The notes beneath the pieces were generated by a model. That model ran no database searches and had not been told where the DNA came from. It was given only the letters and a program-made list of their open reading frames with translations. A program made the position numbers and the translations under genes. A stretch of 64,000 bases of DNA, taken from Geodermatophilus obscurus DSM 43160 (GTDB taxonomy: Bacteria > Actinomycetota > Actinomycetes > Mycobacteriales > Geodermatophilaceae). This document shows positions 16,711 to 23,340 of this stretch, piece after piece (position 1 is the stretch's first letter; every line of letters begins with the position of its first letter). The stretch lies in NCBI RefSeq assembly GCF_000025345.1, contig NC_013757.1, forward strand, positions 1,116,001 through 1,180,000. Reading direction: 5' to 3'.

Positions 16711-17663
16711 CCGCCGCACCCCCCGCCGACCGGATAGTCGAGCTGGGGCACGTGGTCGAGGCGGCGGCCGCGCTCCGGACGGCCGTCCGGCTCGGGCTCC
16801 TCGAGCAGCTCGGGCGGGGACCGGCAACGGCCGACGAGGTGGCGGTCCGGTGCGGGACGGCGCCCGGCGCCACCGGACTCCTGCTGGAGGCGCTGGAGGC
16901 GCTCGGCGTCCTCCGGCGGGACGACGGCCGGTACGCGGTCACGGTGATGACGCGCTGGGTGGGCACGCTGGAGGCCGGCTGGGCCCGGTTGGACGACGTC
17001 GTCCGGACCGACCGGCCGATCGTGGCCGCGGACACCCCCGCGGGGGCGGCGGAGCTCTACCCCGAGGTCGTGCCGTTCCTCACCCGGCTGTTCGCGCCCG
17101 CGGCTCGCCAGGCGGCCGAGCGACTGGCACCGGTGGACGGCGAGGTGCTCGACGTCGGTGCAGGAGCTGCTCCGTGGAGCCTCGCGCTGGCTGCCGCGGA
17201 CCCGCGGGCCCGCATCACCGCGCTGGACCTGCCCGACGTGCTGCCGGTGACCCGGCGGGCGGTGTCGCAGGCCGGCATGGACGACCGGTTCCGGCTGGTG
17301 CCGGGCGACGTCTTCACCGCCGACCTCCCCGAGGAGGCGTACGGCCTGGTGCTGCTGGCCAATGTCTGCCACCTCTTCGACGCCGACACCAACCGGGCGC
17401 TGCTGCGGCGCCTGCGGCGGGTGCTCCGGCCCGGGGGGACGCTGGCCGTCGTCGACGCGCTGCCCTCGGAGGACCCCGACGAGCGCCGGCTGCTCGCCCT
17501 GTACGCGCTCGGGCTGCGGCTGCGCACGGTGGCCGGTGCGGTGTACCCCCTGGCGTCCTACTCCGCGTGGACGGAGGAGGCGGGCCTCGGGCCGGTCGAC
17601 GCGGTCCCGCTGTCCCGGACCCCGCCGCTCGCCCTGCTCACCTGCACCGCGCCGGCGACGTAG
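16707..17663 (+). CDS. SAM-dependent O-methyltransferase-type protein with N-terminal dimerisation domain
   Basis: 318 residues from the GTG of a GTGA overlap, so translation is coupled to the PEP-utilising enzyme. The N-terminal 95 residues form a winged-helix dimerisation domain (AAALRTAVRLGLLEQLG, LGVLRRDDGRYAVT). The catalytic domain has the SAM motif EVLDVGAGAAPWSLAL, the acidic loop ALDLPDVLP, and LRRVLRPGGTLAVVDALP. This architecture is typical of small-molecule O-methyltransferases in secondary metabolism. With its neighbours it may modify or inactivate the same compound. Confidence 0.82.
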   Translation: MTAAPPADRIVELGHVVEAAAALRTAVRLGLLEQLGRGPATADEVAVRCGTAPGATGLLLEALEALGVLRRDDGRYAVTVMTRWVGTLEAGWARLDDVVRTDRPIVAADTPAGAAELYPEVVPFLTRLFAPAARQAAERLAPVDGEVLDVGAGAAPWSLALAAADPRARITALDLPDVLPVTRRAVSQAGMDDRFRLVPGDVFTADLPEEAYGLVLLANVCHLFDADTNRALLRRLRRVLRPGGTLAVVDALPSEDPDERRLLALYALGLRLRTVAGAVYPLASYSAWTEEAGLGPVDAVPLSRTPPLALLTCTAPAT

Positions 17664-17678
17664 GCCTGCCCGACGCGC

Positions 17679-17981
17679 TCAGCCCGGGAACAGCGCGTCG
17701 ATCCGGCGAGCGAGCTCCAGGTCCAGCTCGGTGACCCCGCCCGCCGAGTGGGTGACCAGCGTCAGGTGCAGCGTGCGCCAGCGCAGGTCGACGTCGGGGT
17801 GGTGGTCCAGCTGCTCGGCGACGAACGCCATCCGCACCAGCGCGGCGACGGCGTCCGGGAAGTCGGGCAGCTCGACGCTGCGGCGGATGCCCTCCCCGTC
17901 CCCGGACCACAGCGGCAGCCCGGACAGGGCGGCGGCGAGCTCGTCGGGGGGCAGGCGCGGTGGTCGGGGCACGGCGGTCAT
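17679..17981 (-). CDS. 4a-hydroxytetrahydrobiopterin (pterin carbinolamine) dehydratase
   Basis: 100 residues. DHHPDVDLRWRTLHLTLVTH contains the family active-site histidines and is followed by SAGGVTELDLELA. The enzyme recycles carbinolamine-form pterin cofactors, and bacterial members may also serve in molybdopterin metabolism. No aromatic amino acid hydroxylase is adjacent. It lies 16 bases downstream of cysH on the same strand and may be the last cistron of the sulfur cluster transcript. Confidence 0.88.
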   Translation of the reverse strand: MTAVPRPPRLPPDELAAALSGLPLWSGDGEGIRRSVELPDFPDAVAALVRMAFVAEQLDHHPDVDLRWRTLHLTLVTHSAGGVTELDLELARRIDALFPG

Positions 17982-17997
17982 CCTGCCGCCGCGGACC

Positions 17998-18723
17998 TCA
18001 CAGGTGCAGGCCGCACTCCGTCTTGCCGCGGCCGGCCCAGCGGCCGGCGCGCGGGTCCTCGCCGGGGGCCACCGGGCGGGTGCACGGTGCGCAGCCGATC
18101 GAGGCGTAGCCGATCTCCTGCAGCGGGTTGACCGGCACCCGGTGCTCGGCGATGTAGGCGTCGACGTGCTCCTGCGTCCACGCGGCCAGCGGGTTGACCT
18201 TCACCATGCCGCGCTTGGCGTCCCAGTCGACGACCTTGGTGCCCGCGCGCGTCGGCGACTCGTCGCGGCGCACTCCCGAGCCCCACGCCGAGTACCCGGC
18301 GAGGGCCTTCGCCAGCGGCTGCACCTTGCGCAGCGAGCAGCACAGGTCGGGGTCGCGGTCGTGCAGCTCCGCGCCGTGCTCGGCGTCCTGCTCGGCGACC
18401 GTCTTCTCGGGCAGCACGTTGACCAGCGTGATCGGCATGACCCCGCTCACCCAGTCGCGGGTGCCGATGGTCTCGGCGAAGTGGTAGCCGGTGTCGAGGA
18501 AGACCACGTTGACGCCGGGGACCGCCCGCGACGCCAGGTGCGAGAGCAGCCCGTCGGCCATGGACGAGGTGACCGCGAAGTCGTCGCCGAAGGTCTCCCC
18601 GGCCCAGCGCAGGACCGCGAGCGCCTGCTCGACGGGGTCGGCGATGCCCTCGAAGCGGGCGTCGGCCGCTGCCGCCAGTTCTGGCGTGGCGAGCTCCGGT
18701 GTCGGCCGGACGGCGGTCGTCAT
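17998..18723 (-). CDS. cysH: Assimilatory adenylyl-sulfate (APS) reductase, thioredoxin-dependent
   Basis: 241 residues from the ATG at 18723, which overlaps the stop of the zinc-ribbon gene (ATGA). It reduces APS to sulfite. Two Cys pairs, CCSLRKV and CAPC, mark the [4Fe-4S] form that uses APS rather than PAPS. The C-terminal KTECGLHL carries the catalytic cysteine. A TSSMADG PP-loop-like segment lies near residue 52. It is the fourth gene of a minus-strand run with APS kinase, sulfite reductase and a small zinc-ribbon protein. Confidence 0.93.
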   Translation of the reverse strand: MTTAVRPTPELATPELAAAADARFEGIADPVEQALAVLRWAGETFGDDFAVTSSMADGLLSHLASRAVPGVNVVFLDTGYHFAETIGTRDWVSGVMPITLVNVLPEKTVAEQDAEHGAELHDRDPDLCCSLRKVQPLAKALAGYSAWGSGVRRDESPTRAGTKVVDWDAKRGMVKVNPLAAWTQEHVDAYIAEHRVPVNPLQEIGYASIGCAPCTRPVAPGEDPRAGRWAGRGKTECGLHL

Positions 18724-18905
18724 GGGTGCTGCACTCCTGTCCCGGTGAGCCGGACGGTGAAGGTCCGCAGGCAAGCGGCGCAGTGCCACTCGCTCCCGTC
18801 CCCGTGCGGGGTCAGCTCCTCGTCCCCGCAGTACGGGCAGAAGAACACGGGCAGCTGCCGTGCTCTTCCCCCACCTGCGGACTCCTCCTCCGTCAGAGCA
18901 GCCAC
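18720..18905 (-). CDS. Small zinc-ribbon protein between sulfite reductase and APS reductase
   Basis: 61 residues from the GTG at 18905. It overlaps the end of the sulfite reductase gene by 13 bases and the start of cysH by 4. CPYCGDEEL and CAACLRTF provide two CxxC knuckles, a rubredoxin-like zinc ribbon. Small proteins of this type occur at this position in other actinobacterial sulfite reductase loci, which suggests help with cofactor insertion or electron delivery, but the function is unestablished. It is easily missed because its frame also runs through longer spurious reading frames. Confidence 0.8.
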   Translation of the reverse strand: MAALTEEESAGGGRARQLPVFFCPYCGDEELTPHGDGSEWHCAACLRTFTVRLTGTGVQHP

Positions 18906-20563
18906 GCCTCCTCGGCCCGCGCCACGTAGGCGGCGAACCGCTCGCCGGGCTCCCGGCGCTCGAGGTAGCCGCGCAGCACCCGCTCGCAGTAGTCGGCGCT
19001 CTCGGCCTTGGTCACCTTGTGGCCGCGGAACTTGCGGCCGAAGGCGGCCTCGGTGCCGAGGTGGCCGCCCAGGTGCACCTGGAAGCCCTCGACCATCTCG
19101 CCGCTGTCGTCGCGCACCATCGAGCCCTTGAAGCCGATGTCGGCGGTCTGGAACCGGGCGCAGCTGTTCGGGCAGCCGTTGACGTTGATGCCGATCGGCT
19201 CGTCGAAGTCCGGCAGCCGCTTCTCCAGCTCGGCGTAGAGGTCCTGGGCGTGCTGCTTGGTCTCGACGATCGCGAGCTTGCAGAACTCCAGCCCGGTGCA
19301 GGCCATCGTGCCGCGCCGGAACGCGCTCGGGCGCACCAGCAGGTCGTGCTCGGCCAGCGCCGCGACGAGGTCCTCGACCCGCTCGTCGGGGACGTCGAGG
19401 ACGACCATCTTCTGCTGGGTCGTCGTCCGGGTGCGCCCCTGCCCGTACTCGTCGGCGAGGTCGGCGATCCGGGTGAGCAGGCTGCCGGTGATCCGGCCGG
19501 TGCGCAGCGCGAAGCCGACGGCGTTGGTGCCGTCCTTCTGCCGGGCGACGCCGACGTGGTCGCGCTGCTCGTGCTTCGGCGGAGCGGCGGCGGGGCCGTC
19601 GGGGAGCTTGTCGTGCAGGTACTCGTCCTCCAGCACCTGGCGGAACTTCTCCGGGCCCCAGTCGGCCACGAGGAACTTGATGCGGGCGCGGTTGCGCTGC
19701 CGGCGGTAGCCGTAGTCCCGGAAGATCGAGGTGCAGGCCGCCCAGACGTCGGTCACCTGGTCGGGCCGCACGAAGACGCCGAGCCGCTTGGCGAACATCG
19801 GGTTGGTCGACAGGCCGCCGCCGACCCACAGGTCGTAACCGGCCTCGCCGTCGGCGTTGCGCACCCCGACGAAGGAGATGTCGTCGATCTCCGGCTCGGT
19901 GCAGTGGTCGACGCAGCCGGACATCGACGTCTTCCACTTGCGCGGCAGGTTGCTGAACTCGGGGCTGCCGACGTACCTGGCCACCGTCTGCGCCATGACG
20001 TCGGAGGCGTCGAGGACCTCGTCCTCCAGGACGCCGGCCAGCGGGCAGTTGAGCATGCCGCGGGGGGTGTCGCCGCAGGCCTCGGTCGTGGTGAGGCCGA
20101 CCGCCTCGAGCCGGCGCCAAATCTCGGGGACGTCCTCGATGCGGATCCAGTGGTACTGGATGTTCTGCCTGTCGGTGACGTCGGCGACGTCGCGGCCGAA
20201 CTCGGTGCTGATGCCGCCGATGGTCCGCAGCTGGGCGCTGGTCAGCGCCCCGCCGTCGGTCCGCACCCGCATCATGAAGTAGGAGTCCTCGAGCTCCTCG
20301 GGCTCCAGCACGGCGGTCTTCCCGCCGGGGATGCCCTGCGCCCGCTGGGTGTAGAGCCCCATCCAGCGCATGCGACCGCGCAGGTCGCCCGGGTCGATGC
20401 CCCCGAAGCCGGTGTGCGCGTAGATGTCGAGGACCCGCTGACGCACCGTGAGGCCGTCGGCGTCCTTCTTCATCCGCTCGTTGGGGTTGAGCGGCTCCCG
20501 GTAGCCCAGCGCCCACTGGCCCTGGCCACGCTGGGGCCTGTTGCTGGTGCGGGGGGTCGTCAC
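18893..20563 (-). CDS. Ferredoxin-dependent nitrite/sulfite reductase
   Basis: 556 residues with the two-fold ferredoxin/sirohaem architecture. The siroheme-[4Fe-4S] ligands are TACTGLEFCKL and NGCPNSCARF, and the substrate-binding half has TDRQNIQYHW and CGDTPRGMLNCP. It catalyses six-electron reduction of sulfite to sulfide (or nitrite to ammonia). The neighbours cysH and cysC favour sulfite. The 5' region contains a separate leader peptide with a near-terminal cysteine (20663-20749), so expression is probably set by cysteine supply. Confidence 0.92.
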   Translation of the reverse strand: MTTPRTSNRPQRGQGQWALGYREPLNPNERMKKDADGLTVRQRVLDIYAHTGFGGIDPGDLRGRMRWMGLYTQRAQGIPGGKTAVLEPEELEDSYFMMRVRTDGGALTSAQLRTIGGISTEFGRDVADVTDRQNIQYHWIRIEDVPEIWRRLEAVGLTTTEACGDTPRGMLNCPLAGVLEDEVLDASDVMAQTVARYVGSPEFSNLPRKWKTSMSGCVDHCTEPEIDDISFVGVRNADGEAGYDLWVGGGLSTNPMFAKRLGVFVRPDQVTDVWAACTSIFRDYGYRRQRNRARIKFLVADWGPEKFRQVLEDEYLHDKLPDGPAAAPPKHEQRDHVGVARQKDGTNAVGFALRTGRITGSLLTRIADLADEYGQGRTRTTTQQKMVVLDVPDERVEDLVAALAEHDLLVRPSAFRRGTMACTGLEFCKLAIVETKQHAQDLYAELEKRLPDFDEPIGINVNGCPNSCARFQTADIGFKGSMVRDDSGEMVEGFQVHLGGHLGTEAAFGRKFRGHKVTKAESADYCERVLRGYLERREPGERFAAYVARAEEAWLL

Positions 20564-20662
20564 GGTGGCACTTCCTTCTGCGCCGCCCGCCGCGGCGCCG
20601 TGACCGGACGGGGTGGGCGCTGCCAGATCGGGAGGCGCAGCGGGTGCTGCGGGGGACCGAGG

Positions 20663-20749
20663 TCAGCGCGCGGGGCGACAGACCGCGCTGCTGACCAGCG
20701 CGAGGTCGATGTGACGGCGCGCAACGAGGAGCAGGGCGCGACCGGTCAC
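20663..20749 (-). CDS. Cysteine-type leader peptide upstream of sulfite reductase
   Basis: 28 codons from the GTG at 20749 (GGAG just upstream), or 34 from an in-frame ATG at 20767. The peptide contains RRHIDLALVSSAVCR, matching the actinobacterial 'putative leader peptide' class (RRHxDL...SSAxCR) found ahead of sulfur-assimilation genes. It ends 99 bases before the reductase start, and that gap holds G/C-rich complementary segments that could form alternative hairpins. The expected role is attenuation: ribosome stalling at the Cys codon near the end would change folding of the downstream leader. It lies between cysC and the reductase, so an internal promoter is likely. Confidence 0.75.
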   Translation of the reverse strand: MTGRALLLVARRHIDLALVSSAVCRPAR

Positions 20750-20790
20750 GGCTCCATGGTCCCACATCGGGGAGATCGGCGGCGCGTGAG

Positions 20791-21393
20791 TCAGCCGACG
20801 GAGGGGCCGGCCCCCTGCAGGTGCCCATCCCGAGCGTGCGGGGAGTCGGGGGCAGCAGGTCCTCCCGCCATGGCGGCGCGGATGCGCGCGACGGACTCGT
20901 TCAGCGGGGTGACCGAGGTGTCGAGGACGACCTCGGCGCGCGCCGGCGGCTCGTAGGGGTCGTCGATGCCGGTGAACCCGGTGATCTCCCCGGCCCGGGC
21001 CCGGGCGTACAGGCCCTTGACGTCGCGGCCCTCGCACACCTCCAGCGGGGTGGACAGGTGGACCAGCACGAACCGGCCGTGCTGCTCGACCAGCGCGCGG
21101 GCCTCCTCGCGGGCGGCCTCGTACGGCGCGATCGCGGCGACGACGACCGTGCCGCCGTGCTTCACGACCTCCCCGGCGACGAAGCCGATCCGGCGGATGT
21201 TGAGGTCGCGGTCCTCCCGGGAGAAGGAGAGCTCGCTGGACAGGTGGGTCCGCACGACGTCGCCGTCCAGGACCGTCACCGGCCGACCCGCGGCCTCCAG
21301 GTCGGCGACCAGCGCGTCGGCGATCGTGGACTTGCCCGCCCCGGAGAGGCCGGTGAGGAACACGGTGACGCCCGGGCGCGGTGCAGCTGACAT
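20791..21393 (-). CDS. cysC: Adenylyl-sulfate (APS) kinase
   Basis: 200 residues. P-loop GLSGAGKST lies near residue 15, and the family motifs DGDVVR, LSFSREDRDLNIRRI and KGLYARARAGEI are intact. It makes PAPS from APS. The downstream reductase is an APS-type enzyme, so CysC would not be needed for assimilation and may serve sulfation or storage, or control the APS pool. No CysD/CysN sulfurylase subunits lie in the window. The C-terminal 25 residues are a non-conserved tail. Confidence 0.92.
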   Translation of the reverse strand: MSAAPRPGVTVFLTGLSGAGKSTIADALVADLEAAGRPVTVLDGDVVRTHLSSELSFSREDRDLNIRRIGFVAGEVVKHGGTVVVAAIAPYEAAREEARALVEQHGRFVLVHLSTPLEVCEGRDVKGLYARARAGEITGFTGIDDPYEPPARAEVVLDTSVTPLNESVARIRAAMAGGPAAPDSPHARDGHLQGAGPSVG

Positions 21394-21427
21394 GCCGCCA
21401 GTCTCGCCCAGTTAGTCGCGACGGCGG

Positions 21428-21925
21428 CTACCGGCCCCGGTCCGCGACGGCCTCGTCGCTGAAGGACCGCCAGGCCTCCTCGAGGGCCGCCAGCTCGGCG
21501 ACCGGCGCCGGCAGCTCGCCCGCGACGACGTCGGCGAGGGTGACCTGCTCGAGCACCCGGCGGTAGGCCTCGCGGGCGGCCACCCACACCGAGGCCAGCG
21601 GAACGGCGGTGCCCGAGTACTCGACGTCCTCGGGGCGCTGGCCGTGCACCTCGGCGAGGAAGCCCTGCTCCACCCGCATGACCCGGGCGATGGAGACCTC
21701 CGCAGGCGGCAGGGCCAGCCGGTAGCCGCCCTCCCGGCCGCGCTGGCTGGTGACCAGGCGGGCGTGCTGCAGGTCGCTGAGGATCGACTGGAGGAAGCGG
21801 GACGGGATGCCCTGCGCCGCGGCGATGCGGTCGCAGGTCAGCGCTCCGGGGGCCGCCGCGGCCAGCTCCACGGCGGCTCGGACGGCGTAGTCGACCCGGG
21901 CGGTGATGCGCACGGTGCCCATCAT
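21428..21925 (-). CDS. Rrf2 family transcriptional regulator (CymR-like)
   Basis: 165 residues with a winged-helix N-terminus (ITARVDYAVRAAVELAA, SRFLQSILSDLQHARLVTS, REGGYRLA). The three clustered cysteines that bind an iron-sulfur cluster in IscR and NsrR are missing, so it resembles CymR-type cysteine regulators. Placement 34 bases ahead of cysC on the same strand supports control of the sulfur genes. It starts 35 bases from the divergent NUDIX gene. ATG codons at 21925 and 21922 are both possible. Confidence 0.85.
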   Translation of the reverse strand: MMGTVRITARVDYAVRAAVELAAAAPGALTCDRIAAAQGIPSRFLQSILSDLQHARLVTSQRGREGGYRLALPPAEVSIARVMRVEQGFLAEVHGQRPEDVEYSGTAVPLASVWVAAREAYRRVLEQVTLADVVAGELPAPVAELAALEEAWRSFSDEAVADRGR

Positions 21926-21960
21926 GTGGGCCGTCCCGCCCTGTCTGCCAGGGTGGCAGC

Positions 21961-22722
21961 GTGTCCCGGCTGCGTTTCACCACCCTGGTGGAGGCGCCGC
22001 TGACCGTGGCCTTCGACGTCGCCCGCGCCCTCGGCCGGCCCTGGCCGGTGCCGCTGGAGGAGGTCGTGTCGGTCCGGCCGTTCCACGACGTCTACGCCGT
22101 GGGGCCCGGCCGCGGCTGGCGCCGGCTGACCCACTCCCGCCGCTTCACCGCCACCGGCGCCGGCACCCTCGTCGAGGAGCAGGTGGACTGGGCGACCGCG
22201 CTGCCGGGACCGCTCGGACGGGTGGTGGACCCGCTGCTGCGCCGGCGCGTGCGCCGCGCGATGACGGTCCACCTCGACGGCTACGCCGCCGCTGCCGCCC
22301 GGCGGGCCCTCGACGTCGTCCAGGTGGTCGGCGCCGCGCTGGTGGACGGCGACCGGGTGCTCGTCGCCCAGCGATCGAGCGGGCCCTACGACGGCTGCTG
22401 GGAGTTCCCCGGCGGCAAGGTCGAGCCGGAGGAGGAGGAGCTCGCCGCGCTGGTCCGGGAGATCGGTGAGGAGCTCGGCGTGGCCGTCGTCCCGCAGGCG
22501 TTCCTCGGGGAGGTGGTGCTGGACGGCGTCGTCGCCGGCGGGCTGCCCGGCGCCTCCACGCTGCGGGTGTGGTCGGCCCGCGTCGAGACCGGGAGCGAGG
22601 TCACCGCGCACGAGCACAGCGAGCTGCGCTGGCTGACCGCGGACGAGCTGGAGTCGCTGGACTGGATCCCGGCGGACCGGCCGCTGCTGCCCGCCGTCCG
22701 CGCGCTGCTCGGCCGCCGCTGA
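21961..22722 (+). CDS. Fusion of a SRPBCC-like domain to a NUDIX (MutT-like) hydrolase
   Basis: 253 residues. The first half (about 1-115) resembles a SRPBCC/START-type domain (RFTTLVEAPLTVAFDVARAL, LTHSRRFTATGAGTLVEEQVDW). The second half is a MutT-like NUDIX domain with an intact box: GGKVEPEEEELAALVREIGE followed by ELGV, fitting Gx5Ex7REUxEExGU. SSGPYDGCWEFPGGK suggests 8-oxo-dGTP or related nucleotide hydrolysis. A single open frame spans both halves with no internal stop, so the fusion appears genuine. Confidence 0.8.
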   Translation: MSRLRFTTLVEAPLTVAFDVARALGRPWPVPLEEVVSVRPFHDVYAVGPGRGWRRLTHSRRFTATGAGTLVEEQVDWATALPGPLGRVVDPLLRRRVRRAMTVHLDGYAAAAARRALDVVQVVGAALVDGDRVLVAQRSSGPYDGCWEFPGGKVEPEEEELAALVREIGEELGVAVVPQAFLGEVVLDGVVAGGLPGASTLRVWSARVETGSEVTAHEHSELRWLTADELESLDWIPADRPLLPAVRALLGRR

Positions 22723-22822: not shown

Positions 22823-22993
22823 CTACTTGAAGACGTCCTTGACCTTCTCGCCGGCCTGCTTGAGGTTGCCCGAGGCCTGGTCGGCCTTGCCCTCGGCCTG
22901 CAGGTCGCGGTCGCCGGTCGTCTCGCCGACGGACTCCTTGCCCTTGCCCGAGAGCTCCTCGGCCTTGTTCTTCATCTTGTCGATGCCACTCAT
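22823..22993 (-). CDS. CsbD family stress-response protein
   Basis: 56 residues, Lys/Glu-rich and almost free of hydrophobic residues. It has the repeated pattern MKNKAEELSGKGKE, then GDRDLQAEGKADQASGNLKQ, diagnostic of the CsbD/UPF0337 family. In Bacillus the family is induced by the general-stress sigma factor. The molecular function is not known. A stress-sigma-like promoter lies 29-53 bases upstream, and a GAGAGGAG ribosome site precedes the ATG. Confidence 0.88.
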   Translation of the reverse strand: MSGIDKMKNKAEELSGKGKESVGETTGDRDLQAEGKADQASGNLKQAGEKVKDVFK

Positions 22994-23021
22994 GTCGACT
23001 CCTCTCGTCGGTCCGACCTGG

Positions 23022-23046
23022 ATACCCGGGATGGCGGACCTGACAC
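23022..23046 (-). promoter_or_regulatory. Stress-sigma (SigB/SigH-like) promoter for CsbD
   Basis: On the minus strand GTGT (23046-23043), a 15-base spacer and GGGTAT (23027-23022) fit the actinobacterial general-stress promoter pattern GTTT-N14-16-GGGTAT, with one mismatch in the -35 element. The predicted transcript would start about 20 bases before the ATG, just ahead of the ribosome site. Confidence 0.6.
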
Positions 23047-23226
23047 GCAGGCGGTGTCGCCGGTGGAAGAAGTCCGGCGGAGAGCAGCTCCGGCCGTAGA
23101 TCCTGGACGGCGGCGAAACACCCCGCGCGCGCAACCGTGATTCCACCCTGTGAGATCCTGAGCCGAGGTCACAAGTCGGTGTCGGTCGTGGACGCCCTTC
23201 GCAGAGCGCGCCTAGGGTCCCCGCTC

Positions 23227-23246
23227 GTACCGGGTTGACCCGGTAC
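23227..23246. promoter_or_regulatory. Palindrome upstream of the peptide-transporter operon
   Basis: GTACCGGG (23227-23234), TTGA, CCCGGTAC (23239-23246): a perfect eight-base inverted repeat about 95 bases before the substrate-binding protein start. It could be an operator or the base of a 5' leader hairpin. The bound factor is unknown. Confidence 0.4.
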
Positions 23247-23340
23247 CTGTCCGCACGACCCCGGCCGCCCGTCCGTGGACGCTGGCTGCCGGCGAACCGG
23301 TCCGTTCCCCCCGCAGCGCGGGACGAGGGAGGCATTGCAC

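Follow-up and report, generated by a model that had tools for sequence, protein, structure and literature searches.

A conserved leader peptide with a fixed UGU cysteine codon as a probable cysteine-responsive attenuator of a sulfite reductase gene in Geodermatophilus obscurus

A short open reading frame upstream of the gene for a sulfite/nitrite reductase family protein (SiR) in Geodermatophilus obscurus encodes a peptide that is conserved among related bacteria, and comparison of these sequences indicates a real and probably leaderless cysteine leader of SiR. We consider it quite likely that the segment acts as a cysteine-responsive leader-peptide attenuator of SiR, and probably of the genes behind it, with a UGU codon as its control codon. 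The fixation of TGT at the conserved cysteine of these leaders is unexpected, as TGC otherwise prevails in the SiR genes.

The window, that is, the whole stretch of 64,000 nucleotides that was analyzed, provides the position numbers used throughout, and the genes described are on its minus strand. The original prediction had claimed a 28-codon minus-strand frame between cysC and the reductase gene. Such a frame is present when counted from a GTG at 20749: it occupies 20663..20749, consists of 28 codons and a stop, reads VTGRALLLVARRHIDLALVSSAVCRPAR with RRHIDLALVSSAVCRPAR as its C-terminal end, and contains one cysteine. Both flanking genes are found as claimed. The gene for adenylyl-sulfate kinase, cysC (20791..21393, APS kinase domain match), ends 41 nt before the GTG, and 99 nt separate the leader stop from the start of SiR (18893..20563, NIR_SIR domain match), the presumed controlled gene, whose closest match is the SiR of Geodermatophilus poikilotrophus (98% identical). 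The phosphoadenylyl-sulfate reductase gene cysH (17998..18789, PAPS reductase domain match) is presumed to be in the SiR transcript and is probably under leader control together with SiR. A zinc-ribbon protein, also predicted originally, can be recognized in a frame at 18720, between SiR and cysH, whose end has CPYC...CAAC motifs. Upstream of cysC lies a gene for an Rrf2-family regulator (21428..21925, Rrf2 domain match), and a further frame at 22823-23335 encodes a protein whose end resembles, from its sequence, a CsbD-type stress protein.

At E up to 0.01, the leader peptide is matched in 102 of 112 genomes of the host family, with the genome of G. obscurus among them; 92 of the 96 family genomes of good quality contain a match. 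From the 102 matching genomes, the best-match loci of 76 were fetched, and every one of them has SiR downstream; we refer to these as SiR-type loci. Class-wide, 51 of 79 leader loci among the matches listed have SiR downstream; these loci were picked from among those matches, and 11 of the 60 later ones, which repeated earlier loci, were dropped from the counts. When SiR was used as bait instead of the leader, the leader motif was found upstream in 78 of 80 named loci, compared with none of 240 control stretches inside SiR, in a set that overlaps the other genome sets and so is not independent of them. These SiR-anchored loci come from Geodermatophilus, Blastococcus, Modestobacter, Klenkia, Frankia, Actinomadura, Streptomyces and others, and the two without the motif belong to a Pseudonocardiales and to a Mycobacterium metagenome bin. 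Conservation in related genera, which had been raised as a check on the original prediction, is thus observed both in the family genomes and in the SiR-anchored loci. A protein search of plasmids gave no match.

The leader frame is under amino-acid selection. Among 74 distinct leaders (L121 was left out), the whole peptide has a pN/pS of 0.50 in this frame, and the core has one of 0.30. The two other frames of this strand give 1.5 and 1.4, and the spacer that follows gives 1.0 when treated as codons. Six residues other than cysteine (L-5, V-4, R-2, D+2, L+3 and A+9) are each present in 76/76 leaders and are each encoded by two to four codons, and the codon of the core histidine is CAC throughout the 76 SiR-type leaders, as is usual there. 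The motif persists class-wide, often with one cysteine.

An in-frame ATG at 20767 would extend the leader to 34 codons (MWDHGAVTGRALLLVARRHIDLALVSSAVCRPAR). We rejected this start, because the residues before the GTG at 20749 vary and conservation starts at the GTG. The corresponding position is occupied by V or M in 75/76 SiR-type loci, and GTG 20749 is the likely start of the leader. Six nucleotides before it there is a conserved extended -10 element, TGTGGGACCAT (20756..20766), with the hexamer GACCAT at 20756-20761. An element of the form TGNNANNNT is located 6-8 nt before an in-frame start in 76/76 SiR-type family loci, as compared with 0.8% in shuffled DNA over all sets, and a stricter form of the motif is present in 75/76. 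It is also found in 72 of the 78 SiR-anchored named loci. Among the class loci it occurs in 28 of the best 30 and in 24 of the 49 of a second set, and among the other family leaders in 0/18, so that it is not universal among leaders of the class. Five loci from Frankia and Parafrankia (L267, L271, L272, L274, L281) and one from Actinomadura (L273) lack the element at the usual spacing and keep the peptide and TGT.

If the last T of the hexamer is taken as -7, the G of the GTG becomes +1, which predicts a leaderless transcript that starts at 20749 from an internal promoter. The internal promoter claimed in the original prediction is thus supported by the extended -10, which is conserved and varies little in its distance from the start. 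The columns upstream of the element hold little information, and a sigma-70 consensus promoter with a -35 element was sought at the locus and not found. For 23 of the 76 family loci, the upstream stretch read contains no match to cysC, and the leader and SiR are still together; we left cysC out of the leader unit for this reason, and the pattern supports a link of the leader to SiR rather than to cysC. Transcription from cysC may also read through into SiR, so that the independence from cysC and the Rrf2 gene proposed in the original prediction stays a conjecture. In many family loci a stretch TGAGTCACAC or GTCACAC, noticed by eye, recurs about 21-23 nt before the -10 hexamer; it partly consists of the cysC stop codon, yet is present where cysC is absent, and is perhaps an activator site.

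The conserved cysteine, Cys24 (TGT at 20678..20680), is located 11 codons after the core histidine and is our proposed control codon. TGT is found at this position in 76/76 SiR-type and 18/18 other family leaders, and the 79 leaders of the class sets, among the matches listed, have TGT in 74, TGC in two and other residues in three. In total, TGT is present in 168/173 leaders, or in 168/170 of those that have the cysteine. The second class set has it in 19 of 21 families, and the SiR-anchored named set, which overlaps the others, in 78/78. The usage of other cysteine codons differs: SiR genes of the 76 family loci contain 645 TGC and five TGT, and the remaining 36 cysteine codons of the 94 family leaders are all TGC. 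Binomial tails calculated against the T share in the leaders' other two-fold codons (13% and 27%) are 8e-84 and 4e-39, values which relatedness makes far too small. At other cysteine positions, counted over all leaders, TGT accounts for 19 of 20 codons at +9, TGC for 42 of 52 at +7, and ten TGT and seven TGC are found at +10. The two TGC exceptions are L169, without any of the sulfur genes tested for, and L181, with SiR downstream. The latter leader (positions 397-453) has a promoter-like element as well as SiR, yet uses TGC, and is the only leader that clearly departs from the TGT rule; in L157, L183 and L075 the conserved cysteine is replaced or displaced.

Wobble decoding of UGU by the one tRNA-Cys is presumably slow. 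No conserved ACA partner for UGU was seen by eye in the spacer, and we therefore prefer decoding over base pairing as the probable cause of the UGU lock. TGT is not required for cysteine attenuators as such, since UGC dominates in the cysS leader of Rhodobacterales (PMC8632094). We met no earlier report of the lock in the literature searched, although that search was incomplete and is not proof of novelty.

Comparison with curated families places the leader close to known cysteine leaders. It scores 29.2 bits (E 4.9e-07) against NCBIfam NF042936, the Ms4527A leader family, and 23.2 or 22.0 bits against NF042934 (cis_reg_atten putative leader peptide), below the respective cut-offs of 45 and 27 bits; Pfam gave no match for the peptide, and Rfam covariance models, riboswitches included, gave none at 17500-22500 with E up to 1. 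We did not file the leader in either family, because both cut-offs are missed and the run of cysteines is absent. The leader-peptide class and the position given in the original prediction are right; the class is backed by the matches to both families, though at scores below their cut-offs. Like the NF042936 family, the leader has the RxHxDL core and SiR downstream, and the extended -10 recurs in the best class loci. Unlike this type, it has a single cysteine, as do 62 of the 76 SiR-type leaders (13 have two and one has three), whereas at least three are present in 19 of 22 leaders of the family f2, to which the loci above the NF042936 cut-off belong. Among the matches listed, all 17 loci over the cut-off have both the core motif and SiR downstream. 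This suggests that our leader probably works similarly and probably shares their descent. As in NF042934, a short ORF with the RRHxDL..V.SAxC motif precedes a sulfur gene, but the leader differs from the members of that family in being sub-threshold, so that the curated model would not name it.

In the attenuator described by Canestrari and colleagues, an RNA fold is said to hide the start of the next gene unless a ribosome stalls. We assume that Ms4527A corresponds to the polycysteine short ORF that Canestrari et al. 2020 studied in M. smegmatis. In contrast to that attenuator, our leader has one cysteine and no polycysteine tract; a leaderless transcript is predicted for it from the extended -10 at 6-8 nt in 76/76 loci. 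Cysteine-responsive attenuation by the M. smegmatis short ORFs (Canestrari 2020) is cited in passages of PMC9031893 and PMC13236596, the latter giving translation attenuation as the mode. Leaderless mycobacterial mRNAs carry Cys-enriched small ORFs, one of them before cysA2, according to Shell 2015 (PMC4633059). The cys leaders of Mycobacterium and Propionibacterium are likewise short ORFs before sulfur genes with no conserved terminator hairpin, but have runs of Cys codons near the stop instead of a single one (Seliverstov 2005, PMC1262725). Similar use of Cys codons in an upstream ORF as a sensor was proposed for uORFC-8-2, the cysS attenuator of Rhodobacterales (PMC8632094), which differs from our leader in that it contains two Cys codons in tandem, mostly UGC and in some cases UGU, and in that its 3' end resembles a terminator.

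On the basis of the frame and its selection, the SiR linkage, the promoter-like element and the fixed UGU, all of which come from sequence comparison, we infer a start site, ribosome stalling, cysteine sensing and a switch that may operate as follows. A promoter just upstream of the leader would start a leaderless mRNA at GTG 20749. Ribosomes would load on the 28-codon leader, read ...RRHIDLALVSSAV and then reach the single UGU codon. When Cys-tRNA is short, a ribosome would wait with UGU in its A site, covering element 2 of the last hairpin of the leader, and this stalled ribosome would change the fold of the spacer of about 100 nt such that more SiR is translated. When cysteine is sufficient, the ribosome would proceed to the UGA inside element 3, and SiR would stay low. 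We placed the switch on SiR translation because the reported kin act there and no intrinsic terminator was seen (0 terminator-like sites at 20500-21450); the step from the stall to SiR output is a guess. The presence of one Cys codon in 62/76 SiR-type leaders, where the studied cases have runs, argues against an attenuator.

Several RNA elements could take part in such a switch. Element 2, CAGCGC (20685..20690), lies within Ser20-Ser21-Ala22 and can pair with element 3, GCGCTG (20664..20669), which comprises the last base of codon 27, codon 28 and the first two bases of the stop. Downstream of the leader there is a hairpin 4:5, CGCAG...CTGCG (20636..20651), followed by element 6, GCAGCGCC (20616..20623), a conserved island in the non-coding spacer of 47 aligned loci, and by element 7, GCGCAG (20578-20583), which adjoins the Shine-Dalgarno-like AAGGAAG of SiR (20571-20577; together 20571..20583). 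The alignment (A1) included 47 of the 76 SiR-type loci, and 24 of the other 29 were inspected apart, with L008, L010, L015, L016 and L088 left out. The islands GCAGCGCC and GCGCAG stand out in a variable spacer, and are partly complementary to the leader end and to each other; CAGCGC occurs in element 2 as well as in element 6, and element 3, being complementary to each of them, can pair with either. Most loci of two genera lack element 6 or have another sequence in its place.

All six pairs of helix 2:3 are invariant in 47/47 aligned loci, which hence provide no covariation evidence either way, and the serine codon at +8, part of CAGCGC, is AGC in 75/76. Hairpin 4:5 has a compensating change, at a single base pair, in 7 of 47 sequences (0/500 shuffles were as high), and covariation of helices 5:7, 3:6 and 6:7 in the 47 aligned loci is not above shuffles. 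The leader RNA folds only slightly better than shuffles, with a z of -1.5 and 16 of 200 shuffles as good, and the spacer alone has a z of -0.8. Refolding with a masked ribosome footprint, in 74 loci (in L008 and L010 no SiR start was found), did not make the SiR start consistently more accessible: the difference of stop minus stalled exceeded zero in 44/74, with a mean of 0.07 kcal/mol. Helices were scored in the 54 of 74 loci that had all four elements; 2:3 and 3:6 are unscorable in the stalled state, since the assumed footprint edge cuts element 3, and helix 6:7 shifted by more than 0.1 in the expected way in seven loci and in the opposite way in ten. We rejected a trp-like switch (2:3 and 6:7 off, 3:6 on), for which there is no covariation above shuffles, element 6 is partly lost and masked folding gave no signal. 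Pairing 5:7 at the SiR Shine-Dalgarno was rejected as well, its covariation not being above shuffles. The alternative RNA folds that the original prediction had brought up for checking thus yielded no clear switch. Its overall interpretation is supported in part, namely for the class, the position, the internal promoter and the SiR linkage, and attenuation in response to cysteine is suggested by the comparison with studied kin.

The null results of folding are also relevant for a transcriptional switch, which differs from the attenuator only in the last step: fast completion of the leader would let Rho end transcription in the untranslated spacer, and a ribosome held at UGU would prevent this. 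The spacer is C-rich, there is no intrinsic terminator at 20500-21450, and folding gave no support for unmasking of the SiR start. Rho was also raised for terminator-less cys operons of Mycobacterium, in a prediction that its authors themselves call rather weak (Seliverstov 2005, PMC1262725). However, the 47 aligned loci have conserved islands close to the Shine-Dalgarno of SiR, and the mode cited for M. smegmatis is translation attenuation (PMC13236596). We consider termination by Rho rather unlikely. Another mechanism concerns the sensor. A nascent RRHxDLxxVxSA chain may itself hold the ribosome and sense a ligand such as cysteine or sulfide, the Cys codon being no more than the stall site, and such arrest may be combined with the attenuator. 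This would agree with non-cysteine residues that stay invariant while their codons vary, with the low core pN/pS and with a class-wide motif that often has one cysteine, but fixation of UGU at the codon level fits decoding better than a pure nascent-chain sensor, and kin with Cys runs are reported to be cysteine-responsive; we consider an arrest peptide unlikely. A class-wide hybrid of both, in which the RRHxDLxxVxSA peptide primes the ribosome and one Cys codon, locked as UGU because its decoding would be slow, senses starvation, while the leader's other cysteines may be UGC and so avoid misplaced stalls, is possible, and we propose it tentatively.

Amino-acid selection on the leader may likewise be expected of a small functional peptide, which, like an unregulated relic, would involve no attenuation. 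The linkage to a sulfur gene, the leaderless-type promoter element, the fixed UGU, the spacer islands and the studied mycobacterial kin all speak against both, and we regard them as very improbable. GC-rich windows hold many spurious frames, but conservation, in-frame selection and the controls refute a chance open frame, whose probability we take to be close to nil. The attenuator with UGU as control codon accordingly remains the reading that we prefer.

With this reading, a class of cysteine-sensing leaders known from work on mycobacteria comes to include Geodermatophilus and related bacteria, in a form with a single Cys codon. It also gains a position-specific UGU lock that is invisible to a protein-level family model. 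Should this lock indicate the control codon, stall sites could be predicted for leaders throughout the class, and decoding speed and the nascent chain could be directly tested against each other as sensors by point changes. If the hybrid is true, the mycobacterial Cys runs would represent an elaboration, and the control codon could be recognized by its spelling throughout a ribosome-directed regulon.

The genome of G. obscurus itself contains two further leaders that pass the NF042934 cut-off and one near it. These three precede genes for a TauD-like dioxygenase, a rhodanese-like sulfurtransferase and a TSUP-type permease (gene names from reading the sequences), sulfur-type genes such as a cysteine regulon would have. 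Four loci of this genome, near 4429176, 4859399, 1336740 and 2322124 (L138-L141), were noted as further leaders of the class, the last of them (L141) doubtful, and all four have TGT.
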